Of a DNA stretch of 64,000 nt, positions 2,691 through 20,120 are shown one piece after another; positions within the stretch are counted from its first letter, which is position 1, and each line of letters begins with the position of its first letter. Position numbers and translations under genes: made by a program. Under the pieces are notes generated by a model, which was given only the letters and a program-made list of their open reading frames with translations, had not been told where the DNA came from and ran no database searches. Source of the stretch: Leifsonia soli (GTDB lineage Bacteria > Actinomycetota > Actinomycetes > Actinomycetales > Microbacteriaceae). The stretch is taken from NCBI RefSeq assembly GCF_013408745.1, contig NZ_JACCBJ010000001.1, positions 310,001 through 374,000 on the forward strand, given 5' to 3'.

Positions 2691-2758
2691 CACCGTCGAG
2701 TCCGCACTCTTTGCACACTCCGACGGCGCGTCGCGTGCAGAGTTCGCGGACTCGACGG
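2691..2758. repeat. type A palindromic element, copy 1
   Basis: Long imperfect inverted repeat. The left arm starts CACCGTCGAGTCCGC at 2691 and the right arm ends GCGGACTCGACGG at 2758; the inner halves are TTTGCAC and GTGCAGAG around a core GACGGCGCGTC. It lies between two plus-strand genes, 22 bp after the upstream stop and 44 bp before the downstream start. No T run follows the stem. Confidence 0.85.
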
Positions 2759-2802
2759 CTGGTAGCGTGCACCCAACCGACGCACCGACCTCAGGAGGAC
2801 GC

Positions 2803-3432
2803 ATGACGACGCACGCCGACAAGACCTACGCCCGCATCACCGGCTCCCCGGCTCCGCGCGACCTGGAGTGGACCGAGTTCATCAGCTTCTGGCAGGACCG
2901 CGCCGACCAGGTGGAACAGGAGACCGGCGATCGCCTCGCGGTGAAGCTGAACGGACACCGCGAGGTCTTCCGCCGCCAGCACGACGGCCGCGTCTCCATC
3001 GAGGACATCGAGCGGGCCCGCCACCTGCTGGCGGCGACTCCGGAGCCGAAGGGCCACGGCGAGCTGCTCGCCGTCGCGATCGACGCCGAGCACGCCCGCA
3101 TCTTCGACTTCGATCTGGATGCGCGCACGGTCAGCGACACGGAGTGCACGGTGACCGACGAGGACCGCCGCGCCGACCACCTCCGCACGGTCGAGCGGCA
3201 CACCGGCCATGACGACGAGCGCGACCTGGACCACTTCTTCGACGCCGTCGCCGAGGCGCTGCGGTCGACCGCTCCCGACCGCTCGTTCGTCGTGATCGGG
3301 CACGGGTCGGGCAAGGCGGATGTCGCCGCCGAGTTCGTCGAGCGCCTGCGCGCCGCGCACGCGGATGTCGCTGCGCGCGTGACCGCGCTCACCGAGCTCG
3401 ACCTCAGTGCAGCGACCGACGCCGACATCTAG
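2803..3432 (+). CDS. eRF1-domain-3-like (translational machinery type) protein
   Basis: A 209-residue cytosolic protein with a strong AGGAGG ribosome site (2793-2798) before the ATG. The N-terminal third is acidic and helical and not recognised. Residues about 85-200 match small proteins related to the third domain of archaeo-eukaryotic release factor eRF1: strand LLAVAIDAEHARIFDFDLD, a central helix DHFFDAVAEAL, then SFVVIGHGSGKADVAAEF and a last ARVTALTELDLS strand. In other bacteria short homologues are annotated as translational machinery proteins, and baeRF proteins are thought to act on ribosomes; the activity is inferred only from this. It is flanked by type A palindromes on both sides. 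Confidence 0.6.
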   Translation: MTTHADKTYARITGSPAPRDLEWTEFISFWQDRADQVEQETGDRLAVKLNGHREVFRRQHDGRVSIEDIERARHLLAATPEPKGHGELLAVAIDAEHARIFDFDLDARTVSDTECTVTDEDRRADHLRTVERHTGHDDERDLDHFFDAVAEALRSTAPDRSFVVIGHGSGKADVAAEFVERLRAAHADVAARVTALTELDLSAATDADI

Positions 3433-3490
3433 TCCGCCGCCCAGGCCGCCGTCCGCCTCTAGCCGCCGCCCGCGCCCTCCCGCCTCACGC

Positions 3491-3566
3491 CCCCACCGTC
3501 GAGTCCGCAAACTTTGCACGAGACGCGCCGTCAGAGCGTGCAAAGTTTGCGGACTCGACGGTGGGG
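3491..3566. repeat. type A palindromic element, copy 2 (perfect 30-bp arms)
   Basis: A perfect inverted repeat: left arm 3491-3520 begins CCCCACCGTCGAGTCCGC and ends TTTGCACG; right arm 3537-3566 is its exact complement; the loop is 16 bases. It occupies the gap between two convergent genes, with a G-rich tail reaching within a few bases of the 3575 stop. It could act as a two-way terminator, but there is no U tract, and other copies are not at gene ends. Confidence 0.92.
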
Positions 3567-3574
3567 GGAGGGGG

Positions 3575-5857
3575 CTACTGCTCGAGGGGGGCGCGCTTCA
3601 GGATGAGGAAGCGGGCTCCGTAGGCGGGGACGCTGACCGGGAAGCTGGCCAGGTCGTCCACGGTCCCGACCTCGCTGCCGTCGGCGGCATCCGTCACCGT
3701 TGCGCGGTGGGGGAGCGCCTCCGAGCGCACGGTGCCGTCGACGGCGGTGTCGGTCATGTTCAGCACCGTCAGCTGCACCACGGGCAGCTCCTGCTCGTCC
3801 AGCGTCTCCAGCTCGTGCACCAGGACGAGCATGCCCGGGTGCGCGACGTCCGGGACGTCGACCTGGCGGGCGCTCGCGATGCCCCAGCGGTCGCGGATGC
3901 GGAGGAGCTCCCGCAGGCGGTTCGCGAACGAGTCGCGCTTCCGCAACTGCTCGGGGAGCGGCCCGTACAGCGAGCGGGCCCGCGGCATCCCGTAGGCGGA
4001 GCGGTCGGCATCGGGTGCGGATCCGAGCAGGTCGTGCGCTCCCCGCTCGACCCAGCGGGTGTCGCCCTCCGCGATGAGGTCGGCCACCTCGGCGCGGGGG
4101 ACCGTGAGGGCGCCGAGCAGGTCCCATCCCGACAGAGCGAAGACGCCCGGCTGCCAGGCGTTGAACGCGGCGAGCAGCAGGTGGGCGTCGCGGATCGCCG
4201 GGATGTCGTCCTCGGTGATCGAGTCGAGCGTCGCGTGCCCCTGGGTCGCAGCGATGAGGGAGGCCGACGTGCAGGCGATGCCGTTCGTCGTGAACACGAG
4301 GTTGTAGTCGGCCGTCGGCTCGGTGATCGCCTCGACGAGATCGGCGCGGATGCGCTGGGCCAGCTCCCCTCCGCTGATCTCCTCCCCGCGGAACGTGTAG
4401 ACGTCGTTCTGGTGCAGCGTGGCCCAGTGCACGAGCTCGTAGGTGAGCTCGTCGTGGTTCTGCATCCCGTGCACCAGGCTCACGGGCTCGACCCCGAGTT
4501 CCAGCGAGGTGCGCAGGGTGAGGCGCAGGAACTCGGTGTCGCCGGTGGCGAGGGCGTGGTGGTACGCCGGACGGTTGATGAAGTCGTACGAGAGGTCGGC
4601 GCCGACAGCCCCGGTGTCGCGGATGTCCTCGACGGTCAGGTTGAGCTCCTGGAAGGTGAAGCCGCCGACCTTGCGCACCATGCCGGCGATGATGTGGTTC
4701 GCCGCGTGCGACAGCGGGTGGCCCTCCGACCAGGCCGGCATCCCCTCCGCGCTCTTCTCGACGCCGAGGAAGCCGTTCGCATCCAGCCGCAGCGCGCTCG
4801 TGCCGAGGTCGCCGAGCGAGTGCAGGGCGTCGCCGATCACCAGGCGCATGCCCGAGAACGTCGGGTCGAGCCAGTTGACCGACGGCTGGCCCTCCTTGAA
4901 GTAGTGGAGGTAGACCCAGCGGCGGGTGACGCCGTCGACGCCGATCACCGGCGCGGTGGCGCTCCAGTTCGTCTCCTTGACTCCGGGCGCGTAGAAGATC
5001 ACGCGCTGCAGCTCGCCGATGATGTAGCCGCGCTCGGCGAGCGCCGCCTCCGTCGACGGGTCGAGGTTGACGGAGTCGCGGCCCTCCGGCACCTCGGGCA
5101 GCAGGTGCCACTCGTCCGGCGGGATCTCGACCATGTGGTAGATGCCGGGGTAGTCCTTGTACGCCATCTCGGCGAGCCGGAAGTCGGCTCCCTTGCCGGT
5201 GTGACCCGGCACGATGTCGTCGATGACGCTGCCGCCGTGCTCCTCGGCGACGTCGGTCAGGCGGCGGAAGGTGTCCTCATCGCCGAAGGCCGGATCGATC
5301 TGGGTGCCGATGCGGTCGAAGTGGCCGTCGACGCTCGGGGTCTCCTGCCAGCCGCGGATGCCGCCGGCCCGCTTCACCGGACCGGTGTGGATGCCGTTGA
5401 TCCCGATCCGCTGGAACGCGCGCCACAGCTCCGGGTCGGCGAGCGCCGTGAGGAACGACTCGCCCGGTCGCGTGATCAGCGAGATCGGGTACGCGGTGAA
5501 CCAGACGTCGGATGTGGAGACCGCACGGCGGGCGTCCGGCCGGGCGTACGGGTTGCGCCACATGCTGGGCGAGCCGGAGAGCTGCCGGCTGAGCACGTCC
5601 GCATCCTTCAGCATGGACTGCCGCACCAGCCATTCGACGTACGCGGGGTTCTGGCCGTTGGCCGCCCGGGGGTCGGAGAACGTGCGGCGGATGCTGCCTC
5701 CGCGGAGGTTCGCACGCGGGCGCAGCCGGCGCGGTCTCGCGGGGTAGAGCTGTTCGTCGTAGGTGATCTCCTCCGGCGCCGCCTGCTCCTCCGCAGGGGT
5801 CTCGCCGGGTGCCGTCGCCGTGTCCTGCTCCGTCGCCTCGAGTGCCTCGTCGTCCAC
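3575..5857 (-). CDS. GH13 alpha-glucan enzyme, trehalose synthase-like
   Basis: A 760-residue protein starting at GTG 5857, preceded by AAGGAG at five bases. The first 50 or so residues are acidic and probably disordered ([19 protein letters not shown]). The barrel keeps the three GH13 catalytic residues: nucleophile Asp359 (LRLDANGF), acid/base Glu404 (FTFQELN) and transition-state Asp469 in [10 protein letters not shown]. The rest resembles enzymes annotated as trehalose synthase or maltose glucosyltransferase, but it is longer than classical TreS (about 600) and the barrel entry is atypical ([18 protein letters not shown]). It probably interconverts maltose and trehalose or remodels an alpha-glucan; the exact reaction is uncertain. 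It is divergent from nhaA and ends against palindrome copy 2. Confidence 0.68.
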
Positions 5858-5949
5858 GTGGTCTCCTTCCGTGACTGCCAACGTAACCCCCGAAACGGCC
5901 GGCGTCTTCCGACGACCGTTCCCCACGCCCCGGGAGGCGCGCGACTCGC

Positions 5950-5955
5950 TAGAGT
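5950..5955 (+). promoter_or_regulatory. -10 box for leaderless nhaA start
   Basis: TAGAGT ends seven bases before GTG 5963. No Shine-Dalgarno precedes the GTG, so leaderless translation is likely. Confidence 0.45.
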
Positions 5956-5962
5956 TTTTCCC

Positions 5963-7855
5963 GTGACCACTCCGCTCACGCTCATCCAACGTTCGCCCGA
6001 TCCCGAGTCGGCCGGGCAGTCGCGCGACCGGCGGCCGAGCATCGCCGAGCGCTTCCGCTCGATGGGGCGCAGCCGCATCGGCGCGCTCCTGCTCGTCGCG
6101 GCGACGCTCATCGCGATCGTGTGGGCCAACATCTCGTTCACGGGCTACGAGCAGTTCTGGGACACCCACCTGATCGTGGGGGTCGGCGATCTGCACCTCG
6201 ACTTCACCCTCCACGCGCTCGTCAACGACGCCCTCATGGCGATCTTCTTCTTTACCGTCGGGCTGGAGGTGCGGCGCGAGTTCGCGATCGGCGAGCTCAC
6301 CAGCTGGTCGCGCGCCGTCGTCCCGGTCGTCGCCGCGGTCTTCGGGCTGGCGGTTCCCGCGCTCATCTTCGTGCTGTTCACCCTGGGGACGGGGATGGAG
6401 CACGCCTGGGGTGTCGTGATCTCCACCGACACGGCGTTCCTCGTCGGCGCGCTCGCCCTCGTCGGCCCGCACGCGACCGGGCGCCTCCGAGTGTTCCTCC
6501 TGGCGCTCGCCGTGGTGGACGACATCGGCGCCCTGAGCATCATCGCCCTGGTCTACACCGAGAACTTCAACCCGTATCCGCTGATCATCGCCGCGGTCGG
6601 ACTGGTCGGCGTCTACTTCACGCGCTATCTGCGCGGAGGCCGGGGGCCGGTGTACGCGACGCTCGCGATCATCGTGTGGCTCGCGTTCCTCGCGTCGGGC
6701 GTGCACCCCACGCTGGCCGGCGTGGCGATCGCCCTGCTCGTGCCGGTGTACCGGCCCAACCGGCGGGATGTGGAGCACGCCCTCGATCTCGCCCGCACCT
6801 TCCGGCAGTCGCCGAACACGGAGTACGCACGAGCCGCGGCGAACAGCCTGCGCGAGTCCATCTCGATCAACGAACGCCTGCAGTCGGCGTGGGGCCCGTA
6901 TGTGGCATACGTCGTGCTGCCGCTGTTCGCCCTCGCCAACGCGGGCGTTCGGCTGGACGGCGACATCCTCGCCGGCGCGCTCGTCTCGCCGATCGCCTGG
7001 GGTGTGCTCGCCGGTCTCGTCGTCGGCAAGTTCGTCGGCGTGTTCGGTTCCACCGCCGTGCTGCGCCTGCTCAAGATCGGCGACTTCGGGCCGGGCCTCA
7101 CCCTCGACCGCCTGGCCGGCGGAGCGGCGCTGTGCGGGATCGGCTTCACCATCTCGCTGTTCATCGTCGACCTGGGAGTGCGTGACGAGGCGGCGCAGAA
7201 CGCCGCCCGCGTCGGCGTGCTCGCGGCGACGATCGTGGCCTTCGTCGTCGCGACCATCGTGTTCCGCATCTCGGACGCCCGCCGTCCGAAGGACGAGGCC
7301 GGCCTGACCCTGGTCCGTCCGGTCGACCCGGCGCGCGACCACATCTTCGGGTCGCTGGATGCGCCGTACGAGATCGTCGAGTACGGCGACTTCCAGTGCG
7401 GCTTCTGCCTCAAGGCGACCGGGTCGGTGTTCGAGGTGCAGCGCGAGCTGGGCGACCGCCTCCGGTACGTCTGGCGGCACGCGCCCCTCACGCGGTACCA
7501 CCCCAACGCGCTCGCGGCTGCGGAGGCGTCGGAGGCCGCGGCGCGTCAGGGCAAATTCTTCGAGTTCGAGCGCGCTTTGTTCGCCGACCAGGAGCACCAG
7601 CTCCCGTCAGACATCCTGCGCCGTGCGGAGGAGCTCGACCTCGACCTCGAGCGCTTCGAGGCCGACCTCAGCTCCCCAGAGGTGGCCGCCCGTGTCCGCG
7701 ACGACATGCTGGATGCGGAGGCGATGGACATCACGGCCGTACCGACGTTCTTCATCAACGGCCGCCGCCACGTCGGCCCGTATGACGCCCAGTCGCTCAT
7801 CCGCGCGATGCAGGCGTCCGAGGGGACGGACACCGCCGCGACCGCGCAGCCGTAG
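5963..7855 (+). CDS. nhaA: Na+/H+ antiporter NhaA fused to DsbA-like thioredoxin
   Basis: A 630-residue two-domain membrane protein. Residues about 45-440 are a full NhaA antiporter with roughly twelve membrane segments, including [13 protein letters not shown] and the ion-binding pair Asp186-Asp187 in [10 protein letters not shown]. It would exchange Na+ or Li+ for protons and help alkaline and salt tolerance. Residues about 455-625 form a DsbA/thioredoxin-4 domain with active-site Cys479-Gly-Phe-Cys482 and the cis-Pro region [15 protein letters not shown]. NhaA-thioredoxin fusions are known in actinobacteria, but the role of the redox domain is not established. GTG 5963 is chosen because a -10 box sits seven bases upstream. 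A hairpin follows at 7868-7894. Confidence 0.9.
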
Positions 7856-7867
7856 CGCGCTCGCGCT

Positions 7868-7894
7868 CGGCGGTCGTCCTGCGGCCGACCGCCG
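7868..7894. terminator. hairpin downstream of nhaA
   Basis: CGGCGGTCG (7868-7876) pairs exactly with CGACCGCCG (7886-7894) across a nine-base loop, 13 bases after the nhaA stop. No T run follows. Confidence 0.4.
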
Positions 7895-7945
7895 GCCGGC
7901 AGCCGACTAACGGCCACGCCGCCGAGGGACGTCGGTGGCCGGCCC

Positions 7946-7951
7946 TACGAT
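7946..7951 (+). promoter_or_regulatory. -10 box for leaderless start at 7958
   Basis: TACGAT ends six bases before the ATG of the YdeI-family gene, with no ribosome site in between. Confidence 0.45.
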
Positions 7952-7957
7952 CGGGTC

Positions 7958-8554
7958 ATGGCCGACGACCCCCAGCGACCCTCGCCCGACCTCCTCGTGG
8001 TCGCCGACCAGGCCGCGTGGCGTGCCTGGCTGGACGAGAACGAGCGGAGCTCCGACGGCGTCTGGCTGGTGCTCGCCAAGAAGGGCGTCACCGACCCGAC
8101 GTGCCTCACCTACCAGGAGGCCCTGATCGAGTCGCTCTGCAGCGGCTGGATCGACGGGCAGCGCCGATCCCGCGATGCGACGACCTTCGTGCAGCGCTAC
8201 ACTCCGCGGCGCAAGACGTCGCTGTGGTCGGAGCGCAACATCCGGCTCGTCGAGGGCCTCATCGCCGAGGGCAGGATGCGAGCGGCCGGCCATGCGGAGA
8301 TCGAGCGGGCGAAGGCCGACGGCCGCTGGGAGCGCGCATACGCGGGGCCCGCATCGATCCAGGTGCCGGACGACCTGGCGGCCGCCCTCGCCGCCTCACC
8401 GACGGCTGCCGACACGTTCGCCGGACTGAACGGCCAGAACCGCTACTCCGTCCTGCACCGCATCATCACGGCGCCCAGCGAGACGAGTCGAGCGAACCGG
8501 CTGGCCAAGCTGGTGGGGATGCTGGAGCGCGGCGAGACGCCGCATCCGCAGTGA
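7958..8554 (+). CDS. YdeI/OmpD-associated family protein
   Basis: A 198-residue cytosolic protein of usual family length. Recognisable family features are AAWRAWLDENERSSDGVWL near the N-terminus, SLCSGWIDGQRR, the basic TPRRKTSLWSERNI segment and a C-terminal helical tail ending before NRLAKLVGMLERGE. The family is annotated from YdeI and its association with OmpD; its biochemical function is unknown and it appears in peptide-resistance and general stress settings. It stands alone between nhaA and the bicupin gene, with its own leaderless-type promoter. I see no catalytic motif to support an enzymatic claim. Confidence 0.8.
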   Translation: MADDPQRPSPDLLVVADQAAWRAWLDENERSSDGVWLVLAKKGVTDPTCLTYQEALIESLCSGWIDGQRRSRDATTFVQRYTPRRKTSLWSERNIRLVEGLIAEGRMRAAGHAEIERAKADGRWERAYAGPASIQVPDDLAAALAASPTAADTFAGLNGQNRYSVLHRIITAPSETSRANRLAKLVGMLERGETPHPQ

Positions 8555-8672
8555 CCCGATCCCACCATCCTCGATCCCGCCATCCTCTCGGACCGGCCCA
8601 CCCGGAACAAGCGTTGATCGGCGGCTCCGCGGCCCCATAGGTTGGGGGTGACACCCCGACGAAAGGACCCGC

Positions 8673-9716
8673 ATGCCGTCCAGCCCCTCGCCCCATGTCG
8701 CCTCGCTCACCGATGCCGCGGACACCTACGAGAACGACTTCGGCCGCATCTCGCAGCTCACCGCCGCCGACTTCCCCATCCTGAAGCGGATGTCGCTGAA
8801 GCGCATCGTCCTCGAGCCGGGCGGTGTCCGCGAGCCGCAGTGGAACGTGAACGCGAACCAGATCGCCTACGTGGTCCGCGGGACCGTGCTGGTGTCGATG
8901 CTGGCCAACGCGGACGAGTTCGCGTCCTTCGTCGTACAGCCGGGTCAGATGTACCACGTCGCCTCCGGCGCGATCTACCACATCGAGAACGTCGGCGAGG
9001 AGACGGCGGAGATCATCGCGTCCCTCCGCACCGCGCGGCCCGCGCACTTCTCGCTGCAGAACAGCTTCAACGCGATGACGGACGCCGTGCTCGGCAACAC
9101 CTACGACCTCCCGTCGTCCGCGTTCGCCGCGTTCGACCGGCACGACGCGCAGCAGATCGTCCGCCGCGAGGGCCCCGCGCGCATCCCGGACACCGCCGGC
9201 CTTCCCAACGCGCACCTCTTCGACATCGCCGGGCAGAACCCGCCGCTGTCGTACGACTACGGCAGCGCGCGGCTGGGCCGCAAGCAGTTCTGGGCCGCCC
9301 TCGACGACCTCTCGATGTACTCGCTCGAGATCGGCCGCACGGGCATGCGCGAGCCGCACTGGCACCCGGTGACGGCCGAGCTCGGCTACGTGCAGAGCGG
9401 GCACGCGCGGATGACGGTGCTCGACCCGGACGGCTCCCTCGACACGTACGAGCTGGAGCCGGGGAACGCCTACTTCATCCCGCGCGCCTACCCGCACCAC
9501 ATCGAGGCGCTGGGCGACGAGGGCATCCACTTCCTGATCTTCTTCGACCAGCCGACACCCGGCGACATCGGCTACCGCGCCACCGCGTCCGCATTCTCGC
9601 GCGAGGTGCTGTCGTCGGCGTTCGGCGTTCCCGAGGCGCAGCTCCCGCAGTTCCCGTTCACGCCGATCGACCCGCTGATCGTCGGGCGGACGAACCCGGT
9701 CGATCCGGTGGAGTAG
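8673..9716 (+). CDS. bicupin protein, oxalate decarboxylase-like
   Basis: A 347-residue double-cupin protein with GAAAGGA before the ATG. The second cupin (about 190-330) has the metal motif EPHWHPVTAELGYV and a later HHIEA, giving His, His, Glu and His ligands for Mn or Fe. The first cupin (about 30-170) has lost them: where HWH is expected it reads PQWNVNANQIAYV. Oxalate decarboxylases need a metal in both domains and catalyse in the N-terminal one, so this protein is unlikely to be a genuine OxdC. It has no signal peptide and is probably an intracellular dioxygenase, isomerase or binding protein. It is convergent with the TetR gene. Confidence 0.8.
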   Translation: MPSSPSPHVASLTDAADTYENDFGRISQLTAADFPILKRMSLKRIVLEPGGVREPQWNVNANQIAYVVRGTVLVSMLANADEFASFVVQPGQMYHVASGAIYHIENVGEETAEIIASLRTARPAHFSLQNSFNAMTDAVLGNTYDLPSSAFAAFDRHDAQQIVRREGPARIPDTAGLPNAHLFDIAGQNPPLSYDYGSARLGRKQFWAALDDLSMYSLEIGRTGMREPHWHPVTAELGYVQSGHARMTVLDPDGSLDTYELEPGNAYFIPRAYPHHIEALGDEGIHFLIFFDQPTPGDIGYRATASAFSREVLSSAFGVPEAQLPQFPFTPIDPLIVGRTNPVDPVE

Positions 9717-9756
9717 GCGCGACGGCTTCGGCCACGCCGACACCGTACAGCCGGGG

Positions 9757-10481: not shown

Positions 10482-11342
10482 ATGGAACAGACATGGTTCA
10501 TCACAGGCTCCTCCCGCGGCTTCGGCCGCTCCCTCGTCATCGCCGCGCTCCGGGCGGGTCATCGCGTCGCCGCCACCGCGCGCCGCCCCGAACAGCTCGA
10601 CGACCTCGTCGCCGAGTACGGCGACCGCATCCTGCCCCTTCGACTCGACGTCACCGACGCCGCCCGCGCCGCCGAAGCGCTGCGCGAGGCGTACGAGCGC
10701 TTCGGCCGGCTCGACGTGATCGTGAACAACGCCGGCTACGCCAACGTCTCGCCGATCGAGACGACGGACGACGACGACTTCCGCACCCAGTTCGAGACGA
10801 ACTTCTGGGGTGTCTACACCATCAGCAAGGCGGCCATCCCGCTGCTGCGCCGACAGGGCGGAGGGCTCGTCATCCAGTTCTCCTCCGTCGGCGGGCGGGT
10901 CGGAGGCTCTCCCGGCATCGCGTCGTACCAGGCGGCGAAGTTCGCGATCGACGGCTTCAGCCGGGTCCTGCGGGTCGAGACGGCTCCGTTCGGGGTGAAG
11001 GTCCTCGTCGTCGAGCCGAGCGGCTTCCGCACCGACTGGGCCGGTTCGTCGATGGAGGTGCGCGCGATCCCCGCGGGGTACGAGAGCACCGTCGGCGCGA
11101 TGAATCGCCGGGTGCGGCAGTCCGACGACGGCCCGGCCGGCGACCCGGACCGCGCGGCCGAGATCCTGGTGCGCCTCGCGCAGACCGACGACATCCCGCA
11201 CAACCTCCCGCTGGGGGTGAACGCGACCGAGATGAGCGTCGCGCAGGATCGCCGCCTCCTGGCCTCCGACCTCGCCTGGGCGCCCGTCTCCCGCTCGGCC
11301 GACGCCGCCGAGCCCTACCCCGCCCCTTTCCCGTCCGCCTGA
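10482..11342 (+). CDS. short-chain dehydrogenase/reductase (classical SDR)
   Basis: A 286-residue NAD(P)-dependent oxidoreductase. It has the cofactor loop TGSSRGFG at the N-terminus, with Arg residues nearby that favour NADP (AATARRPEQL), the NNAGY motif, the catalytic Ser in FSSVGG and Tyr-x-x-x-Lys in SYQAAKFAIDG. The C-terminal substrate loop is longer than the minimal SDR core, as in the group close to retinol-type and classical SDRs. It is divergent from the TetR gene and probably controlled by it through the two palindromes in the gap. The substrate is unknown; a xenobiotic aldehyde or ketone would fit a TetR-controlled SDR, but this is inference. Confidence 0.88.
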   Translation: MEQTWFITGSSRGFGRSLVIAALRAGHRVAATARRPEQLDDLVAEYGDRILPLRLDVTDAARAAEALREAYERFGRLDVIVNNAGYANVSPIETTDDDDFRTQFETNFWGVYTISKAAIPLLRRQGGGLVIQFSSVGGRVGGSPGIASYQAAKFAIDGFSRVLRVETAPFGVKVLVVEPSGFRTDWAGSSMEVRAIPAGYESTVGAMNRRVRQSDDGPAGDPDRAAEILVRLAQTDDIPHNLPLGVNATEMSVAQDRRLLASDLAWAPVSRSADAAEPYPAPFPSA

Positions 11343-11364: not shown

Positions 11365-11440
11365 CCCCACCGTCGAGTCCGCGATCTTTGCACGCGCGCA
11401 CGGCGTGTCGCGTGCAATTCGTGCGTACTCGACGGTGGGG
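11365..11440. repeat. type A palindromic element, copy 3
   Basis: Left arm from 11365 (CCCCACCGTCGAGTCC...TTTGCACGCG) and right arm ending 11440 (CGCGTGCAATTCGTGC...GACGGTGGGG), with a few mismatches in the arms. It lies 23 bp after the SDR stop and runs in frame into the MFS gene: every possible upstream start codon of that gene (TTG 11388, GTG 11412, GTG 11421) is inside it. Confidence 0.85.
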
Positions 11441-13064: not shown

Positions 13065-13093
13065 TTGACAACCTCTCCTTCGGTGGGAATCAT
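13065..13093 (+). promoter_or_regulatory. promoter for EAL gene
   Basis: A consensus -35 TTGACA (13065-13070) is followed after 17 bases by AATCAT (13088-13093), which keeps the A and T that matter most in a -10. It would start transcription near GTG 13101 or just before GTG 13110. Confidence 0.5.
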
Positions 13094-13109
13094 CACGAAG
13101 GTGACGTTG

Positions 13110-13871
13110 GTGGACGGGACCCTCGAGGACTTCGCCCGCGATTTCGAGATCGCGCTGGCGCAGCGCCAGGTCACGGCCGCCTACCAGCCGCAGATCGACG
13201 TGGCGGACGGCGCGGTCGTCGGCGTCGAGGCGCTCGCGCGCTGGACCCATCCGGAGCACGGTGAGGTAGCGCCCGACGTCTTCGTCGACATCGCGCAGAA
13301 GACGGGTCTGCTCCCGCTGCTGACGGCGAGGATCATCTCCGATGTGACCTCCCAGTACATTCCGGGATGCACCATCGACGTCGCCGTCAACGTCTCGGCG
13401 ACCCAGTTGGAGGATCCGTCCCTCTACGACATGTTCGAGGGCGCGTTCGCGACCGGCCGCTGCGACCCGGAGACGCTCACCGTCGAGGTGACGGAGAGCT
13501 ACAGCATCGAGCACCCGGAACGGGTCGCCGCGCCGCTGGAGGCGCTCGCCGCGGCGGGAGTCACGATCTCGGTGGACGACTTCGGCACCGGGCATTCGTC
13601 GTTCGCGCGGGTCGAGTCCCTGCACGCAAGCGAGCTGAAGCTCGACAAGAGCCTGGTGCAGGCGGACGACCGTGTGCGCGAGGTCGCCCAGATCATCACC
13701 GAGGCGCACCGCCGGGGCATCCGCGTGGTCGGCGAGGGCGTCGAGAGCCGTGCGCAGCTGGATCGGCTGGCGTCCGCCGGCTGCGATCGCGCCCAGGGCT
13801 ACTTGATCGCCCGGCCGCAGCCCGCTCCGGCGCTGCTGTCGTGGTACCGGATGCGCACGCGCGAGTCCTGA
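13110..13871 (+). CDS. stand-alone EAL cyclic-di-GMP phosphodiesterase
   Basis: A 253-residue cytosolic protein that is one EAL domain with no GGDEF, PAS or membrane segment. Signature residues are intact: Glu40 in VEALARW, NVSATQL, EVTES, VDDFGTGHSSF, the Lys in ELKLDKSLV, Glu in VVGEGVES and QGYLIARP. It should therefore be able to hydrolyse cyclic-di-GMP to pGpG. GTG 13110 has AAGGTGA just upstream; GTG 13101 is an alternative and would suit leaderless translation from the TTGACA promoter. No cyclase or receptor gene is nearby. It ends at a good hairpin (13879-13908) shared with the convergent gene. Confidence 0.88.
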   Translation: MDGTLEDFARDFEIALAQRQVTAAYQPQIDVADGAVVGVEALARWTHPEHGEVAPDVFVDIAQKTGLLPLLTARIISDVTSQYIPGCTIDVAVNVSATQLEDPSLYDMFEGAFATGRCDPETLTVEVTESYSIEHPERVAAPLEALAAAGVTISVDDFGTGHSSFARVESLHASELKLDKSLVQADDRVREVAQIITEAHRRGIRVVGEGVESRAQLDRLASAGCDRAQGYLIARPQPAPALLSWYRMRTRES

Positions 13872-13878
13872 CGCAGAA

Positions 13879-13908
13879 CGCGCCCGGCCTGCGATGAGGC
13901 CGAGCGCG
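13879..13908. terminator. hairpin between convergent genes
   Basis: CGCGCCCGGCCT (13879-13890) and AGGCCGAGCGCG (13897-13908) pair with one mismatch around a six-base loop, just after the EAL stop and facing the 13931 stop on the other strand. Confidence 0.6.
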
Positions 13909-13930
13909 TGCGGGATGTCCGATCAGCGGA

Positions 13931-14188
13931 TCAGAGGGCGTCGAACGAGTCGATGTCGACGCGCGACTCCTCCTGACGGGGAGCGGGCGGATCGACCTCG
14001 ATCTGCGCCCAGGTCACGGGCATGCCCGGGGAGAACAGCACATCGACGCCGGGCCCGCCCCGGAGCGGCGGGATCGTGACGTAACCGCCGCCGGCGCGCA
14101 CGGCCTCCAGGATCTTCCCGCGCAGGTCGTCCACCGGATCGGGGAGGAAGTAGTCCTTTCCGTCGACCGTGAGGCGGTGAACGATCAT
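13931..14188 (-). CDS. hypothetical small protein
   Basis: An 85-residue soluble protein starting MIVHRLTVDGKDYFLPDPVD with AAAGGA before the ATG. The middle GGGYVTIPPLRGGPGVDVLF looks like a small beta-rich fold; the C-terminus is acidic (VDIDSFDAL). I do not recognise the family. It is divergent from the DUF7882 gene, and small proteins of this kind are often found near each other in Microbacteriaceae. Translation probably uses the visible ribosome site rather than a leaderless start. Confidence 0.65.
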   Translation of the reverse strand: MIVHRLTVDGKDYFLPDPVDDLRGKILEAVRAGGGYVTIPPLRGGPGVDVLFSPGMPVTWAQIEVDPPAPRQEESRVDIDSFDAL

Positions 14189-14313
14189 GCGGCGATCCTT
14201 TCCGAGGGGATGATGTAGAACACTATCGCGGCGTCACGATACACCCGTATTCCGGACGAGTATGCTCGCAGCAGCCTCTGAGGGCGACACGAACGACCAC
14301 ACGAAAGGCATCC

Positions 14314-14628
14314 GTGGGCACACTCCGCTACGACGGCGAAAGCTACGAGCTCGACGACCGCCTCCTGTTCCACATGCAGATCGCGATCAGCACCAAGCTC
14401 CGCCGCGGGGAGAACTTCTTCCTCACCTGGCCGGTGCCGGCCGAGCTCGGCAGCGGGCGTCACACCGTCTGGGTCGACAACGGCGTTCCCCTGCACATCT
14501 TCTTCTCCGGCTCCAAGGTCCCGACGCTCAACAAGGACTGGATCGAGGCCATGATCCAGACCGCCAGCCGGGCCTCCGGGATGATCGTGATGGAGGAGTC
14601 CGAGATCCGCCCGAACCCCGGGCGTTGA
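14314..14628 (+). CDS. DUF7882 family small protein
   Basis: A 104-residue protein starting at GTG 14314 behind GAAAGG. It follows the family pattern closely: MGTLRYDGESYELDDRLLFH, then ISTKLRRGENFFLTW, HTVWVDNGVPLHIFF and a C-terminal WIEAMIQTASRASGMIVM segment. The family seems restricted to Microbacteriaceae and relatives and is sometimes wrongly annotated as an ATP-dependent DNA ligase; no ligase motif is present. Its function is unknown. It is probably induced with stress genes, but nothing in this promoter proves that. Its presence is one reason to place the window in Microbacteriaceae. Confidence 0.75.
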   Translation: MGTLRYDGESYELDDRLLFHMQIAISTKLRRGENFFLTWPVPAELGSGRHTVWVDNGVPLHIFFSGSKVPTLNKDWIEAMIQTASRASGMIVMEESEIRPNPGR

Positions 14629-14766
14629 GCGTGGCCCAGCGCTTATAGCGGAAGCGTTTCGCGAAAACAAGGCCCCCCGGATTTCTTGCTTCACCGAGCG
14701 GGTAGTTCGATCATCTAACTAGATCTTCGAATCGCCCCCGACGGATGAGGAAGTAAGGAAGAAGCC

Positions 14767-15024
14767 ATGGCCGAGTCACTCGCAGACATCATCGACCTGC
14801 CCACCGAGTACGTCTCGTGGCACTCGCCCGCGGCCGCGCTGTGGGTCGCGTCGACGCCGACCGCGTACGTGGGCATGGTCGACCGCAACCACGACGGTTT
14901 CGTGGCCACCGACTGCACCGGCCGCGAGCTGGGCGTGTACGGGACGCTGGAGTCCGCACGCGTCGCCGTGTACGGAGCCTGGGTCGCACCGGCCCCCGCC
15001 GAGGAGCAGGCGCTCATCGCCTGA
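14767..15024 (+). CDS. hypothetical small protein
   Basis: An 85-residue soluble protein with GAGGAAGTAAGGAAG before its ATG. It begins MAESLADIIDLPTEYVSWHS and contains two aromatic beta-like segments (AYVGMVDRNHDGFVATD and ELGVYGTLESARVAVYG). I do not recognise the family; the pattern resembles small single-domain proteins found beside DUF7882 genes. It ends before a strong hairpin terminator. The 138-bp gap upstream contains a TTTCGCGAAA palindrome at 14657-14666 and a -35-like TTGCTT at 14686-14691 but no convincing -10. Confidence 0.65.
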   Translation: MAESLADIIDLPTEYVSWHSPAAALWVASTPTAYVGMVDRNHDGFVATDCTGRELGVYGTLESARVAVYGAWVAPAPAEEQALIA

Positions 15025-15076
15025 CCTCGCCAGACCATCCCGGCCGGCGTTTCGGGTGCGCCACCCGGGATTCGAC

Positions 15077-15110
15077 GGAACCCCGGCACCTTTCCCGGTG
15101 CCGGGGTTCC
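15077..15110. terminator. strong bidirectional hairpin terminator
   Basis: GGAACCCCGGCACC (15077-15090) and GGTGCCGGGGTTCC (15097-15110) form a perfect 14-bp stem with a six-base loop between convergent genes. There is no U tract. Confidence 0.75.
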
Positions 15111-15132
15111 CATCGTTTCGGGACCCGTCCGC

Positions 15133-17694
15133 TCAGTTCAGGCTCGGCTCCGAGAGCGCCTCGGCGACCGCCTGCTCGACGCTGAGCTCGCGGCCCTCCG
15201 CGACGGCCGCAGCCAGCCGGCCCGCCGGCGCGACGGCGGCGAGACGGTCCAGGTACCGCTGGTGGAAGGTGAACGTGGGGCCGTTGTGCGTGCCCGACCG
15301 CTCCCGCAGGGCGTGCGCGGCACCGGCGAGGCGCCCGGCACGCTCGACATCCCCGGCGAGGGCCGCCACCGCGGCCAGGCCCTCCAGTCCGTACGCGATC
15401 CCCTCGATGTGGCCGAGTGAGGTGGAGAGCGTCACGCTGAGCGCGAAGTCCTTCCTGGCGTCCTCCGGCGACCCGAGCAGTAGGTGCGCCCAGCCCAGGT
15501 GGTAGGCGGCGATGCGGCCCCCCACGGCGTCCCCGGCTCGTTGGGTGAGCGCGAGGGACTCGTCGAACCGCTCGAACGCGGCGTGCAGCTTCTGCTCCAG
15601 CAGCGCCACCCGGCCGAGCAGGACGAGCGCCATCGCCTCGCCCCACACATCGCCGGTCTCCCGGAACAGCCGCAGGCTCCGCTCCATCACGTCGGTGGCC
15701 CGCGCTGTGTCCGGTCTCTCACCGGCGAGGAGGGCCAGTGCCAGGGAGATCTGCGCCATCGCCTCTCCGGAGCGGTCGGCGCAGCGGCGGAAGAGGTCGG
15801 CGCTCTCCGCGAGGTCGGCGGCGACGCGTCCGTCCGGGTCCTTCCAGAACCGGATGGTCCGCGTGAAGTACAGCGCGACGGCCCGCGTGCGGTCGTGGAG
15901 CGCCTCGCCGGATTCGAGCGGCTCGTCCATCCAGGTGCGCACCTCGCCGAGCAGGCCGATCACCCAGAAGTAGAGGAAGAGGTTGAAGGCGAGCTCGGCG
16001 GCGCGATCCCAGTCGCGGGCGTCCAGGAGGTAGCGCTCGGCGGCACGGAGGTTGTCGCGCTCGTCGCCGAGGCGCTGCATCCACTCGCGCTGCCCTCCGC
16101 CCTTCAGCGGAAGGCGAGCCCGGGCCCCGAGGTCGATGAAGTACCGGGCGTGGGCGTCGCGCGCGCGCTCGATCTCGCCGTCGCCCTGCAGCTGCTCTCT
16201 GGCGTACTCCCGGACGATCGCCTGCATGGTGAACCGCGGCCGGTCGTCGCTGTCATGCTGCGCGACGAGGCTCGAGTCGACCAGCACGGCGAGGTCCGAC
16301 AGCACGTCGGCGGCGTCGTCGCCGTCCGCGCCGACGAACTCGGCCGCCTCCAGGGTGAAGCCGCCCTCGAAGACGCCGAGCCTGGCGAGAAGGCGGCGCT
16401 GTTCCGGCGCCAGCAGCTGCGTGCTCCACTCGATGGTGCGGCGGATGGTCTGCTGGCGCTCCGGGAGGTCGCGCGAACCGCCGACGAGCACCGACAGCCG
16501 GCGGTCGAGGCGGTCCAGCAGCTCGGCGGGGGAGAGCACGCGGATGCGCGCGGCCGCGAGCTCGATCGCGAGCGGGACGCCGTCGAGGGCCGTGCAGACC
16601 CGGGCGACGGCGTCGGCGTTCTCCGCGGTGATCTCGAAGTCGGGCTTCACGGCGTGCGCCCGCTCGACGAAGAGGTTGACGGAGGAGTCCTCGGCGAGCG
16701 GCCCGACGTCGTAGCTCTGCTCGGCGCTCACGCGCAGCAGCGTCCGGCTCGTCACCAGCAGCGACACCCCGGGTGCGGCCGCGAGCAGCCCGGTCAGGAG
16801 CGGAGCCGCATCCAGCACTTGCTCGAAGTTGTCGAGCACCAGCAGGATGCTGCGGTCGCGCAACGCGGTGGCCAGATTGTCGAGGATGGGCGCGTCTCCT
16901 GTGTCGCGCACACCCAGAGCCTGCGCGATGCGGTTGGGCACCCGTTGCGGATCGTGGACCGCCGAGAGATCGACGAAGACCGCGCCGTCCTCGAAGTGCT
17001 GGGCGGCGGCACGCGCCGCCGCGATGGCGAGCCGGCTCTTGCCGATCCCGCCGGGACCGACCAGCGTCACCAGGCGCGTGCCGTGCGCGAGCCGGTCGCC
17101 GATGGCTGCGATGTCCGCATCCCGCCCGACCAGCCCGGTCAGGGGGACCGGCAGCCGGACCGGCTCGACGACCCGGTCTGCGTCGCTCGCCACATCGGCG
17201 GTGATCAGTGCCCGACTCTGGTCGAACCGCTCGGCCAGGAGCGTTGCGAGGTCGTTCTCGATCAGCTGCGCCAGCTCCTTGGGCGTCTCGAAGTACTTGT
17301 ACGCGGCGCGGTCGTCGTCGCGGATGCGCGCGAGCAGCGTGGCGAGTCGCGGCTCGCGGTTGTCGGCGGGGCTCTTGACGTAGAGCAGGCGCGGCAGTTC
17401 GGGCGGGCACAGGTTGTACTCGTCTTCGAGCCCCGAGACATCCTCCTCCGGGGCGACCCAGCCGTAGCGCTCCCAGTACAGCCCGAGGAACACGTCGCTC
17501 TGCTCCAGGTAGGCGCGGTACAGCTCGCGGGGTGGATGCGGACGGGCGCCCAGTTCGAACATCACGGGCGCGAGGTGCAACCGCTCGATGGCGGTGCGCG
17601 CGGCGCGGCGCTCGGCGGCGAGCTCCTGCAGCGTCGAGGAGACGAAGATCCGCAGCCGCTGGTCCGGCGTGCGGATTACATGAGGGTGGCTCAT
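15133..17694 (-). CDS. DUF4062-STAND ATPase-TPR protein
   Basis: An 853-residue cytosolic signalling protein. Residues about 12-110 are DUF4062 (RLRIFVSSTLQELAAERRAA ... YRAYLEQSDVFLGLYW). Residues about 190-480 are an NB-ARC-type STAND ATPase: Walker A GPGGIGKS with Lys219, Walker B ILLVLDNFEQV, sensor LLVTSRTLLR, and GxP-like GVPLAIELAAARI. A winged-helix part (RRLLARLGVFEGGF) and about 350 residues of TPR-like helices follow. STAND proteins are ATP switches that oligomerise when a sensor binds its ligand; DUF4062 would be the effector or adaptor and the repeats the sensor. Related proteins include regulators and candidate antiphage sensors. It is divergent from a small membrane protein gene. 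Confidence 0.82.
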   Translation of the reverse strand: MSHPHVIRTPDQRLRIFVSSTLQELAAERRAARTAIERLHLAPVMFELGARPHPPRELYRAYLEQSDVFLGLYWERYGWVAPEEDVSGLEDEYNLCPPELPRLLYVKSPADNREPRLATLLARIRDDDRAAYKYFETPKELAQLIENDLATLLAERFDQSRALITADVASDADRVVEPVRLPVPLTGLVGRDADIAAIGDRLAHGTRLVTLVGPGGIGKSRLAIAAARAAAQHFEDGAVFVDLSAVHDPQRVPNRIAQALGVRDTGDAPILDNLATALRDRSILLVLDNFEQVLDAAPLLTGLLAAAPGVSLLVTSRTLLRVSAEQSYDVGPLAEDSSVNLFVERAHAVKPDFEITAENADAVARVCTALDGVPLAIELAAARIRVLSPAELLDRLDRRLSVLVGGSRDLPERQQTIRRTIEWSTQLLAPEQRRLLARLGVFEGGFTLEAAEFVGADGDDAADVLSDLAVLVDSSLVAQHDSDDRPRFTMQAIVREYAREQLQGDGEIERARDAHARYFIDLGARARLPLKGGGQREWMQRLGDERDNLRAAERYLLDARDWDRAAELAFNLFLYFWVIGLLGEVRTWMDEPLESGEALHDRTRAVALYFTRTIRFWKDPDGRVAADLAESADLFRRCADRSGEAMAQISLALALLAGERPDTARATDVMERSLRLFRETGDVWGEAMALVLLGRVALLEQKLHAAFERFDESLALTQRAGDAVGGRIAAYHLGWAHLLLGSPEDARKDFALSVTLSTSLGHIEGIAYGLEGLAAVAALAGDVERAGRLAGAAHALRERSGTHNGPTFTFHQRYLDRLAAVAPAGRLAAAVAEGRELSVEQAVAEALSEPSLN

Positions 17695-17821
17695 GTCACG
17701 TCATTGTGTTGCGTTCCTGTGCAAATGTACAGAGGGCGTGCCGGGGGACGCCCGCTAGCACTCCTCGACGGGTCTGCGCAAGGCGGTTCAGACAGATCGT
17801 GATCGGAGGTTAGCTAGGAAG

Positions 17822-18097
17822 GTGAAGGAATTGGCGTGGTACGTACTGGGCTTCGCGTCGGCGGTCACCGCCATCGCGGTGGGGCTGCTCCTGGCCCCCG
17901 ACGCCGCTGACGCCACCGAGGGGCCGGGTGGTCTGTTGCAGCATCTGAACTCCGCCGAGTGGGCGGACTTGGTGGTGGCGCTGGTGTTCGCGGCGATCGC
18001 GTTCGTCAGCGGGAGCTACCTGTCGTCGCGTGCCGCCGCTGCGGCCGACGACGCGGCGCCGACCGTCGATCTGGTCACGGCGGAGAGCGCGGGCTAG
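17822..18097 (+). CDS. small two-helix membrane protein
   Basis: A 91-residue protein starting at GTG 17822 (MKELAWYVLGFASAVTAIAV) with AGGAAG directly before the start. Two hydrophobic segments (about 5-27 and 48-68) flank a polar loop containing DAADATEGPGG; the C-terminal tail is acidic and Ala-rich. I recognise no family. It is divergent from the STAND gene with 127 bp between starts, so the two could share regulation. A membrane partner is a common theme for STAND sensors, but there is no direct evidence of a link. Confidence 0.55.
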   Translation: MKELAWYVLGFASAVTAIAVGLLLAPDAADATEGPGGLLQHLNSAEWADLVVALVFAAIAFVSGSYLSSRAAAAADDAAPTVDLVTAESAG

Positions 18098-18161
18098 AGC
18101 CGGCCGCGCCGGCGGAGCGCGCCGGGTCGACGCGCTCCGAGCCGGCGGATCGGCCGTCCCG

Positions 18162-18797
18162 CTACCGCTTCGCGGCTGCCAGCGCCTCGCGCAGACCGGC
18201 GACGTCGAAGCGGGGGCCGTAGGCGGGCATGTCGCGCTGCGCGCGCCATCCCTCGGCGAGCTCGCCGATGTCGACGGCGTCGAAGCCGAACTCGTCGACC
18301 AGCGCGGCGACCCGCTCGCGTGCGGCGGGGTCGTTCCCGGCCACGATCAGGGCGCGGCGGTCGGGGGTGCCGGCGGGGAGGCTCTGGCCGGTCAGGTCGG
18401 CCGCGCCGATGTGGTTGAACGCCTTCACGACGTGCGAGGTCGGCAGCACCTTCTGCAGGCGCTCGGCCACCGTCGTGGACTCGTCGTCCAGCTCCGCGAT
18501 GTGGCCGTCGCGCTGCGGGTAGTAGTTGTTCGTGTCGATGACGATCTTGCCGGCGAGCTCCTCGACGGGCAGCGTCGCCTCGGCGGCGAGCGGTGTCGTC
18601 ACGACGACGAGGTCACCGGCGGCGGCCGCCTCCGCCGGGGTGCCGGCGCTGGCATGCTCGCCGAGCTCCTCCACCAGGCTGCGCAGCGTCTCCGGGCCGC
18701 GCGAATTGCTGAGCACCACGTCGTAGCCGCGGGCGACCGCGAGCCGGGCGAGCTGCGAGCCGATGTGTCCTGAACCGATGAATCCGATTGTCGTCAT
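18162..18797 (-). CDS. NADPH:F420 reductase-like oxidoreductase
   Basis: A 211-residue Rossmann protein. MTTIGFIGSGHIGSQLARLA holds the dinucleotide loop, followed by VVLSNSRGPETL (the SNSRGP motif is typical of NpdG-like proteins and contacts NADP), KIVIDTNNYYPQRDG and the HVVKAFNHIGAADL segment. It probably uses NADPH to reduce a flavin, F420 or another acceptor; the true partner is unknown. It is of the same family as the 875-1561 protein but the two are clearly diverged. It lies downstream of the OmpA-like operon on the same strand with 51 bp between, and may be read through from it. Confidence 0.82.
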   Translation of the reverse strand: MTTIGFIGSGHIGSQLARLAVARGYDVVLSNSRGPETLRSLVEELGEHASAGTPAEAAAAGDLVVVTTPLAAEATLPVEELAGKIVIDTNNYYPQRDGHIAELDDESTTVAERLQKVLPTSHVVKAFNHIGAADLTGQSLPAGTPDRRALIVAGNDPAARERVAALVDEFGFDAVDIGELAEGWRAQRDMPAYGPRFDVAGLREALAAAKR

Positions 18798-18848
18798 ACT
18801 CGCGAGAACCGGGCCAGGCCCCGGATGATTCCCGCGTGCGGCATCCGC

Positions 18849-20120
18849 TCAGCCGCAGAGGCCGACTCCCGCCGAGGTGAGGATGACGGTGCGGTTCTGC
18901 TCGGCCACGGCGTCCGAGTATGCGCCCGACGCGTCGGTCTCCTTCTTCCAGCCGCACCACTCGAACCCGACCCCGGCCGTCTGGAGCAGGGAGGCCGGGA
19001 CGCCGAGCCCGACGAGCGCGGCCTTCACCGTCTCCGCCCGCTTCAGCGAGAGGGCCGTGTCTGCGGTGTTGTCGGTGGCCTGATCCTTGGACGCGGTGCC
19101 CGTGATCGTCACCGGCTTGCCGTTCTGCTCGATGGCGGGCACCAGCGTCGCGAGCACCGTCTGGGCGGCGGCCGGATCGGAGAAGGACGCCGTGTCCTTG
19201 GTGAACAGCAGCTCGCTGTTGCGGATCACGACGGGCTTCGACCAGTCCGTCTTCGTCGAAACGGGCTCGACGGTCACCGCCGTCACGGCCGGGAGCCCGG
19301 CGGCGGCGCTCCCGGAGGCGGGTTCCGGCAGCAGCGACAGGGTGCCGCCCGCTGCGGCGATCACGGCGGACCAGATCGCCTCCAGATTGCTGCGCGCCGG
19401 GACGGTCAGCGGCTGCTGTGCGCCCGCGGTGTCGCCCATCCCCGACCAGTACACGGTCACGCCCTTCAGGTCGGCGGGAAGCAGCTTGCGGGCGGTCAGG
19501 TCGGCGACCACCTGCGCCGGGTCGGCGTAGAGCAGCCCCGTTCCCGCGAAGTTCAGCGGGTCGGTGGTCTGCAGCCCGCTCCCGACGACGATGACGCCCA
19601 TCGGGTCGCTGCCGAGGTTGCGCGCCGCCTGGTCGATGGCGCCCAGGAAGTCGACTTCCGGGGCGGACGCCTTCAGCCCGTCGATGTAGGACGTGATCTG
19701 CGTGAGCTTGGTGCGCTGGTCGTTCTGGCAGACGATCGCATCCTGGGCCGACGACCCGAGGGCGGTCGTTCCCATCACCTGCGGGGTGCCGGACGGCACG
19801 ACGACCGTCACGCTACCGTTGGTCTTGCCCGCCGCCTGTACCTGGGCGGATGCGGAGGCGGGGAGGGCGACGGCCGGGGCGTTCGCCGTGCTCCCGGCGA
19901 CGACGCCCAGATTGCGCTTGTGGGACTGATCGCACGCCTGCCCCGACGCGGTCGCCGGCGCACACGCCGTGAGCCCCGCCGCGACCACAAGCACCACTCC
20001 CACCGCCGCACCCACCCGCGTCCCCCACCGTCGAGTCCGCGAAGACTGACCGCTCTCGCGGCGCGTCGTGTGCAATTTGTGCGGACTCGACGGGGGGAGG
20101 GGCATGCTGAGCGCTTTCAT
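18849..20120 (-). CDS. OmpA-domain lipoprotein
   Basis: Up to 423 residues. ATG 20120 overlaps the preceding stop (ATGA), giving a 35-residue basic lead largely encoded by palindrome copy 4. A second candidate, GTG 20015, has GGGGGA five bases upstream but would leave the signal helix without basic residues. The helix VGAAVGVVLVVAAGLTAC ends in a lipobox, so the protein should be lipid-anchored outside the membrane. A central alpha/beta domain of about 230 residues is not recognised. The last 130 residues match the OmpA peptidoglycan-binding domain (ATLVPAIEQNGKPVTITGTA, ALSLKRAETVKAALVGLGV, EQNRTVIL). Fourth gene of the 21987-18849 operon. Confidence 0.8.
   Translation of the reverse strand: MKALSMPLPPSSPHKLHTTRRESGQSSRTRRWGTRVGAAVGVVLVVAAGLTACAPATASGQACDQSHKRNLGVVAGSTANAPAVALPASASAQVQAAGKTNGSVTVVVPSGTPQVMGTTALGSSAQDAIVCQNDQRTKLTQITSYIDGLKASAPEVDFLGAIDQAARNLGSDPMGVIVVGSGLQTTDPLNFAGTGLLYADPAQVVADLTARKLLPADLKGVTVYWSGMGDTAGAQQPLTVPARSNLEAIWSAVIAAAGGTLSLLPEPASGSAAAGLPAVTAVTVEPVSTKTDWSKPVVIRNSELLFTKDTASFSDPAAAQTVLATLVPAIEQNGKPVTITGTASKDQATDNTADTALSLKRAETVKAALVGLGVPASLLQTAGVGFEWCGWKKETDASGAYSDAVAEQNRTVILTSAGVGLCG
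20022..20096. repeat. type A palindromic element, copy 4
   Basis: Left arm 20022-20040 (CCCCCACCGTCGAGTCCGC) and right arm 20070-20096 (GTGCAATTTGTGCGGACTCG...). The inner left half has diverged. It lies inside the reading frame of the OmpA-like lipoprotein if ATG 20120 is used, and is read in the same frame as copy 3 in the MFS gene (both give RTRRWG). Confidence 0.8.

Follow-up and report, generated by a model that had tools for sequence, protein, structure and literature searches.

REP doublets forming hairpins (REPINs, built from repetitive extragenic palindromes, REPs) have conserved arms around a variable middle, and their sequences are lineage-specific. Those linked to a REP-associated tyrosine transposase (RAYT), for example in Pseudomonas fluorescens SBW25, appear in the accessible parts of two reports as multi-copy extragenic inverted pairs that persist over long periods (PMC3116915, PMC8049555). 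A second group, the CGTC-tagged REPs, is without a dedicated transposase. In the genomes shown in the portion of the source used here, its copies lie less than 20 bp from convergent gene 3' ends; they have stems of 8-9 bp, loops of 4-5 nt, an unpaired CGTC tag and a distribution over five named phyla that do not include the Actinobacteria (PMC3733652). The same portion describes REPs near gene 3' ends in convergent and tandem arrangement and mentions untagged REP-like families with M. tuberculosis among their hosts; as far as that text goes, the mere occurrence of untagged REP-like repeats in Actinobacteria is therefore no novelty (PMC3733652). The Yersinia YPAL/RU-2 element is described, in the available part of its report, as an intergenic palindrome of about 168 bp with internal inverted repeats and target-site duplications of 3-26 bp, thought to affect the stability of the upstream transcript (PMC2229807). 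A dedicated transposase accounts for the best-studied REP repeats; the palindrome described here, type A, which has four copies in the first 20 kb of a 64,000-nt stretch of the Leifsonia soli genome (the window), is a REP-like population without one. Type A mostly shares slots between sister species, yet both of its arms differ by species in nearly every compared copy, and the long-standing question of what keeps dispersed palindromes alike is testable with it in a high-GC actinobacterial lineage.

We searched 28 genomes of the genus, among them the 3,917,147-bp genome of the window itself (G000; other G numbers denote the genomes of relatives and L numbers extracted loci), with a two-armed pattern allowing up to 3 mismatches and with the reversed pattern as control. 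G000 gave 76 matches against 0 for the reversed pattern, a difference that is not due to chance, and type A is thus a genuine, large REP-like repeat family. The initial annotation had suggested that the four palindromes of the window are copies of one amplified element; all four were found where it placed them and are among the 76 genome-wide copies. The pattern is present in 11 of the 28 genomes (G000 included), at counts ranging from 0 to 76 per genome, which disposes of the idea that the copies exist only here. The element reads CCCCA-CCGTCGAGTMCGC-N6-TGCACG-N16-CGTGCA-N6-GCGKACTCGACGG-TGGGG, with terminal inverted repeats. Surroundings were read for 67 of the 76 copies, with gene calls from our own codon-usage script; one degraded copy (L064), missed by the script, was read by eye. 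From the CCGTC end to the GACGG end the element is exactly 66 bp long in 62 of these 67 copies and 65 bp long in the other five, and an alignment of 48 copies has 26 invariant columns out of 76, with conserved arms and a variable centre. The 62 copies of exactly 66 bp served for the counts of N6 pairing and of arm positions 10-13 in G000. Their left and right N6 stretches are perfectly complementary in 31% of cases compared with 9% when right arms are shuffled among copies, which indicates that pairing of these stretches is favoured. The four window copies, folded as RNA in six folds (two copies on both strands), reach -42.7 to -65.1 kcal/mol with z of -4.3 to -11.8, and 0 of 200 shuffles was as good in each fold. 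The most stable is copy 2 (-65.1 kcal/mol), whose arms, claimed to be perfect over 30 bp, pair without interruption over 31 bp (3490-3520 with 3537-3567) around 16 nt.

The copies lie behind genes. Among the 67 copies, 37 are in convergent gaps, 23 in tandem gaps, 3 in divergent gaps, 3 inside called open reading frames (ORFs) and 1 at a locus edge, whereas the gene pairs of the window number 14 convergent, 37 tandem and 13 divergent; the convergent excess (37 of 63 copies against 14 of 64 gene pairs) has an odds ratio of 5.1 (Fisher p 3e-5). A stop codon faces the element at a distance of no more than 45 nt (median 12 nt) in 58 of the 60 copies in convergent or tandem gaps; in the remaining two the distance is 154 and 419 nt. 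On the transcript strand, the stretch from stop codon to element contains 65-68% C and 13-16% G (25 convergent and 17 tandem copies), compared with 41% C and 32-35% G behind other stops, and the stretch after the element contains 51-68% G. Composition and position together give the order along a transcript: a stop codon, a short C-rich stretch, a very strong hairpin and a G-rich stretch, present from both sides in convergent gaps.

Comparison with two sister species separates the history of the slots from that of the arms. In G021, 17 of 20 copies, which scored among the highest under a model derived from G000 copies and are hence biased to G000-like arms, occupy slots with a type A copy in G000, with flanking DNA 83-96% identical. 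The cores of these copies are 0.662 identical slot by slot, against 0.420 for shuffled slots (0/5000) and 0.547 for orientation-free shuffles (0/5000), so these copies were inherited in place; the slot of window copy 2, for example, holds a type A copy with an identical 16-nt core. Arm positions 10-13 read CCGC in 44 of 50 G021 arms, and the 124 arms of G000 divide into CCGC (93), ACGC (27), ACAC (2) and CCAC (2).

Up to 16 of 24 copies in G009 also occupy G000 slots, 11 by both flanks, 3 by one flank and 2 ambiguously; 15 of these were matched by script (10, 3 and 2, respectively) and L064 was added by reading. The one-flank matches are the second copy of L238, L250 and L251, the ambiguous ones are L237 and L239, and the other 8 copies had no orthologous G000 locus among the loci compared. 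In G009, arm positions 10-13 read ACAC in 45 of 48 arms. These copies come from the 3-mismatch pattern, which misses very divergent copies and overstates the homogeneity of G009; a G000-like arm would have cost fewer mismatches, so the absence of such arms from G009 is no artefact of detection. Over arm positions 10-14 of the 10 clean G009-G000 pairs, the two species agree at 0.57, which does not exceed the value for shuffled slots, compared with 0.90 within G009 and 0.80 within G000; over 15 pairs the values are 0.56, 0.92 and 0.80. The arms at shared slots therefore follow the species on both sides of the hairpin, and this species-wide difference is the part of our results that deserves follow-up.

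Type A resembles the RAYT-linked REPINs in being multi-copy, extragenic and located behind gene 3' ends, and differs in forming one long-armed hairpin instead of a doublet of small REPs, in having no RAYT in the 28 genomes and in its species-wide arm differences at shared slots; since the defining enzyme was sought and not found, we place it outside that group. With the CGTC-tagged REPs, as the consulted part of their description presents them, it shares the lack of a transposase, the place behind gene 3' ends and a CGTC near the end. Its CGTC, however, lies inside the arm and is paired (positions 2-5 are 98-100% paired across the 62 copies), and its unit is 66-76 bp long, unlike the unpaired GTAG or CGTC tag beside a short stem of 5-13 bp that marks tagged REPs. 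The YPAL/RU-2 element, going by the same partial account as above, differs from type A in its length (66-76 bp for type A) and in its duplications, of which type A gave no signal. An intrinsic terminator is likewise a stable GC-rich hairpin behind a stop codon, often between convergent genes, but type A is without the T-run, has a common sequence among its copies and has arms that differ between lineages. In the searched part of the open-access literature we did not find the element described, and its sequence strings occur there only in papers on other subjects, judging by titles; this holds for the 66-76 bp long-armed form, for the recurrence of its core motif across arm types and genera, and for species-wide arms at shared slots.

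The exchange of arms extends to other sister species, of which 26 loci were inspected. A model built on type A (counted on both strands, among the best 150 candidates per genome) found the arm variants CCATCGAGTCCCC in G014, ATCGAGTCCGAA in G004, ATCGAGTCCGGA in G013, CATCGAGCCGGGA in G011 and CCGCCGAGTACGC in G006 and G025. The gcvP gene is present in all 28 genomes, and the gap behind it was read in 27 (all but G023). It contains type A or a close variant in G000, G021, G022, G024 and G009, GCTCCTGAGTT arms in G019 and G015, TTCCTCACTT arms in G003 and other arms elsewhere, and no palindrome scoring above 11 in G002, G004, G026 and G027. At the end of the E2 gene, where the lists cover hairpins above a set score, 11 of 13 species examined have a hairpin and at least four arm types occur: type A in G000 and G022, a type B-like form in G019, G021, G015, G024 and G026, a TTCCTCA type in G009, an CCGAGCACAGG type in G018 and other hairpins in G013 and G014, whereas G004 and G011 have none that passes the score limit outside called ORFs. 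Nine species also have, within these stretches, a simple hairpin, GAGAAGGGCCCCGATC or close to it, with its sequence nearly unchanged (most altered in G022), which indicates that the exchange of arms is peculiar to the type A class.

A core motif is common to many arm types. Many type A cores carry CGACACGCCG or a near match on one strand, and the exact motif occurs in 18 of 109 intergenic hairpins from the 20-kb and 14-kb stretches and the window, 13 of the 18 being without type A arms; 300 letter-shuffled motifs on the same hairpins gave a mean of 0.06 matches and a maximum of 9, a shuffle being able to match the shared arms. The form GCRACACGCCG occurs 60 times in G000 and its reversed pattern 22 times. 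In a survey of 299 genomes of the family it is, by eye, in strong excess in some genera and close to control in most, with counts over control of 125/17 (G159), 90/20 (G072), 69/6 (G184), 43/11 (G144) and 37/5 (G162), and no excess in congeners (11 against 17 in another species of the genus of G159, 14 against 17 in one of that of G072). We read 30 motif loci from six genomes with an excess. Among the 25 loci of five genera, 18 (15 of 22 distinct places) fall within a hairpin with a score of at least 12, compared with 3 of 190 control positions at the same loci; in the sixth genome, G141, this was so for 0 of 5 loci, 4 of which are within called genes. The arms differ by genus (GCGGATCCGCAGTTC in G184, GTGCACAAATGCAGGA in G162, CCGAATTCAGG in G159, GCGAGATGCCACTTGTGC in G072 and GAGGGTGGCCAC in G144), and the core motif thus reappears in five other genera in hairpins whose arms are different.

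We propose, with a probability of about 45%, that type A elements are two-way mRNA 3'-end hairpins whose arms are held to a lineage consensus by a hypothetical trans-acting factor that reads their sequence. They would be members of a class of long REP-like hairpin elements directly behind stop codons. The transcript of either flanking gene would continue past a short C-rich trailer into a highly stable hairpin, which may protect the mRNA 3' end and/or halt RNA polymerase, possibly after Rho. An RNA hairpin at the end of the message, which would be the working form, is suggested by the position, the C-rich lead-in and the covarying arms, and 3'-end protection or termination is its likeliest use. 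The factor, protein or RNA, would keep the arms at the consensus of the lineage, and a shift in its preference would have pulled the arms along. If the G009 copies stayed in place, either selection by a reader of the arms or gene conversion confined to the arms is needed; we favour the reader, since conversion would need tracts shorter than 25 bp. Gene ends of this kind, read by their sequence, would be an unusual class if the hairpins do form the 3' ends of mRNAs. The wider version, in which a RAYT-less population of 3'-end hairpins extends over several genera of the family and a shift in the preference of a fast-changing factor rewrites dozens of copies in place, in both arms and with slot and core kept, leaving neighbouring species with different versions behind the same genes, strikes us as unlikely.

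Several observations weigh against this proposal. At a median of 12 nt behind the stop codon, the hairpin would lie partly under the terminating ribosome, and the tR2 terminator reportedly loses nearly all of its function when only a few bp separate it from the end of a gene (PMC4824070). The factor itself is hypothetical. No T-run was found after the hairpin (T 5% in the 25 convergent and 10% in the 17 tandem copies), the N6 stretches are imperfectly paired in 69% of the 62 copies, and self-pairing of the 16-nt core is below random expectation (2.5 of 8 pairs against 3.0 in shuffles). The core motif is in sense orientation in 4 and antisense in 8 of 12 scorable tandem copies, and the copies within called ORFs and in divergent gaps, three of each, do not fit the scheme. 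The cores of G009 and G000 add to these points. Over 15 pairs they are 0.562 identical at the same slot compared with 0.389 for shuffled slots (0/2000), but orientation-free shuffles reach 0.492 (56/5000); over the 10 clean pairs the value is 0.481 against 0.380 for shuffled slots (49/5000), a weak signal, and against 0.464 for orientation-free shuffles it is not significant (1596/5000). Some single pairs, L251/L211 and L240/L203 among them, look plainly homologous in the core and others do not. The evidence from cores for change in place is thus strong for G021 and weak for G009, and replacement of whole copies at favoured slots is possible between G009 and G000. Given the weaker core signal in the clean pairs, we rated the 3'-end hairpin reading and its wider version lower and turnover higher.

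Turnover of this kind is at the centre of a different explanation, that type A is a non-autonomous transposon (a miniature inverted-repeat transposable element or REPIN-like) moved by some transposase, with insertion tolerated behind stop codons and turnover at the slots keeping the copies alike. Such an origin would account for the spread of counts from 0 to 76 among the 28 genomes, for conserved arms around a variable centre, as in REPINs, for the weak inheritance of cores in the clean G009-G000 pairs and for the finding that one slot can have different hairpin types in sister species, because of which turnover stays conceivable. The linked RAYT/REP-type transposase that the initial annotation had thought of was, however, not detected: PF01797 (Y1_Tnp) had a match at E<=0.001 in 0 of the 28 genomes, and the same search was positive in 5 of 14 control genomes. 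A search of 48 copies for target-site duplications at offsets 0-15 and lengths 2-10 detected none (best z 1.9), although old duplications may have decayed. Among 133 gene entries beside 67 copies, where not all neighbours were annotated, no recurring gene was found, the exceptions being four pairs of distant paralogues (25-32% identity) and two genes situated between neighbouring copies. Phage and plasmid records gave no match to the element, in a search for an autonomous relative with matching ends that did not extend to the chromosomal insertion sequences of the genus, and 17 of the 20 G021 copies keep both slot and core. Of the description as a mobile or amplified element, amplification therefore stands with the 76 copies, and mobility is not borne out, with no duplication and most compared copies in shared slots; a transposon origin seems to us unlikely, though it carries real weight.

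Function at the level of DNA is the main functional rival of an RNA hairpin. Type A copies might be dyad sites for a chromosome-organising or other DNA-binding protein, with the hairpin incidental, and the rigid spacing is in line with this, the outer half-sites being, by the sequence, 53 bp apart centre to centre, near 5 helical turns. The orientation of the core motif is not clearly tied to transcription, and the copies favour the half of the chromosome opposite dnaA (48/67, p 5e-4; 25/38 in G009, p 0.07), a bias that might reflect gene content; the position of dnaA (3,029,166) was taken to fix the origin side, GC skew from the scattered loci not having located the origin. Against such sites stand the close association of the copies with stop codons and the C-rich trailer seen along the transcript, and the N6 stretches covary within copies, which is not required of two independent half-sites. 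We judge this explanation more improbable than a transposon. That type A copies are ordinary intrinsic terminators, alike by common descent and base composition, agrees with their place behind stop codons, the convergent excess and the strong folding. The initial annotation had named this as an outcome that would overturn its proposal, and the position is indeed terminator-like, but the copies conform to a consensus sequence. The missing T-run, together with a hairpin that starts so near the stop codon, makes a classical intrinsic terminator less likely; the 26 invariant columns in 48 copies, the rigid length, the species-wide arm differences and the terminator-like simple hairpin that keeps nearly its own sequence in nine species in the same stretches also speak against it, and we regard this last alternative as very unlikely.

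Some further searches concerned the identity of the element. Rfam matched 0 families in the window, and a scan of genome contigs, a set from which the records of near relatives may be absent, gave 2 pattern matches in unrelated organisms. Two pattern matches in viral contigs had no second arm by eye and were taken as chance, and viral contigs searched with the neighbouring protein gave no match. The possibility that each half is a small REP hairpin, the whole being a REPIN dimer, was considered by eye only and was not adopted.

Within the window, the coordinates of the type A copies and of two palindromes of a second type, B, are given in Table 1. The top direct-repeat family of the window consists of exactly the four type A copies, the other three being 66-74% identical to the reference over 90 nt. 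The recurring tail GGTGGGGGGAGGGG noted for copies 2 and 3 is present and is not special, being part of the general G-rich stretch past the element, which is mirrored by the C-rich stretch ahead of it. As to gene context, the tandem position first given for copies 1 and 3 and the convergent position of copy 2 hold, and the placement of copy 4 at the start of a gene is incomplete: it is in a tandem gap, 12 nt ahead of the start of the (-) gene 18849-20015 and 23 nt past the stop of the (-) gene 20117-20965. Both type B palindromes of the window carry the core motif in both arms.

Table 1. Coordinates of palindromic elements in the window
Element	Position	Strand	Description
Type A copy 1	2688..2763	+	66-bp palindrome 2693-2758 plus flanks; tandem gap; stop of gene 1622-2668(+) 24 nt away
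Type A copy 2	3490..3567	-	Arms of 31 bp without interruption; in convergent gap flanked by genes 2803-3432(+) and 3575-7597(-)
Type A copy 3	11365..11440	+	Palindrome 11370-11435; tandem gap; 27 nt past stop of gene 10482-11342(+); core CGGCGTGTCGC
Type A copy 4	20022..20097	+	Palindrome 20028-20093, degenerate inner arms; tandem gap; 23 nt past stop of 20117-20965(-)
Type B palindrome	43383..43436	.	Arms AGTTGACGCAACACGCCGT...ACGGCGTGTTGCGTCAACT; core motif GCAACACGCCG shared with type A; divergent gap
Type B palindrome	57167..57218	.	Arms GTTGACGCGACACGCCGT...ACGGCGTGTTGCGTCAAC; convergent gap; 13 and 7 nt to two stop codons

Individual loci showed further arrangements. The gene 2803-3432 lies between copies 1 and 2 (window 2693-3561) in G000 and likewise in G021 (elements at L221:3006 and 3812), and G009 has one element (L237:3001) and no gene between the same two neighbours, which looks like loss or gain of a gene between two copies of the element. 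In G022, four type A-like copies follow each other at a spacing of ~100 bp in one gap between two (-) genes (L107:4803-5181). Two type A copies of G000 are within long called ORFs (L051:3005-3070, G000 2686594; L052:3006-3071, G000 1947055), and in L051 the coding score falls across the element only and resumes on both sides, as if the element lay in frame within the gene. The copy with a damaged right arm in L064 (3005-3080; G000 about 830259) is, by eye, beside a tRNA-like sequence. Type B palindromes with GGTTGACGCRACACGCCGT or GGGTCGCAACACGCCGT arms also occur in G000 near 867 kb, 1021 kb, 1315 kb, 1386 kb and 1474 kb, three of them within about 300 bp near 1386.4-1386.7 kb (L162-L166). 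In the divergent promoter gap of the gcvP stretch there are operator-like palindromes, with ATTCGTSACGAAT repeats in some species and AGATTTGSCGCAAATCT-like ones in others (e.g. L099:7336-7388, L105:12608-12662 and L101:7321-7377), and these look like a regulator site altered between species. The window also encodes, at 15133-17694 (-), an 853-aa protein with DUF4062 and NB-ARC domains, which we take to be a STAND-type ATPase and which may be a defence protein.

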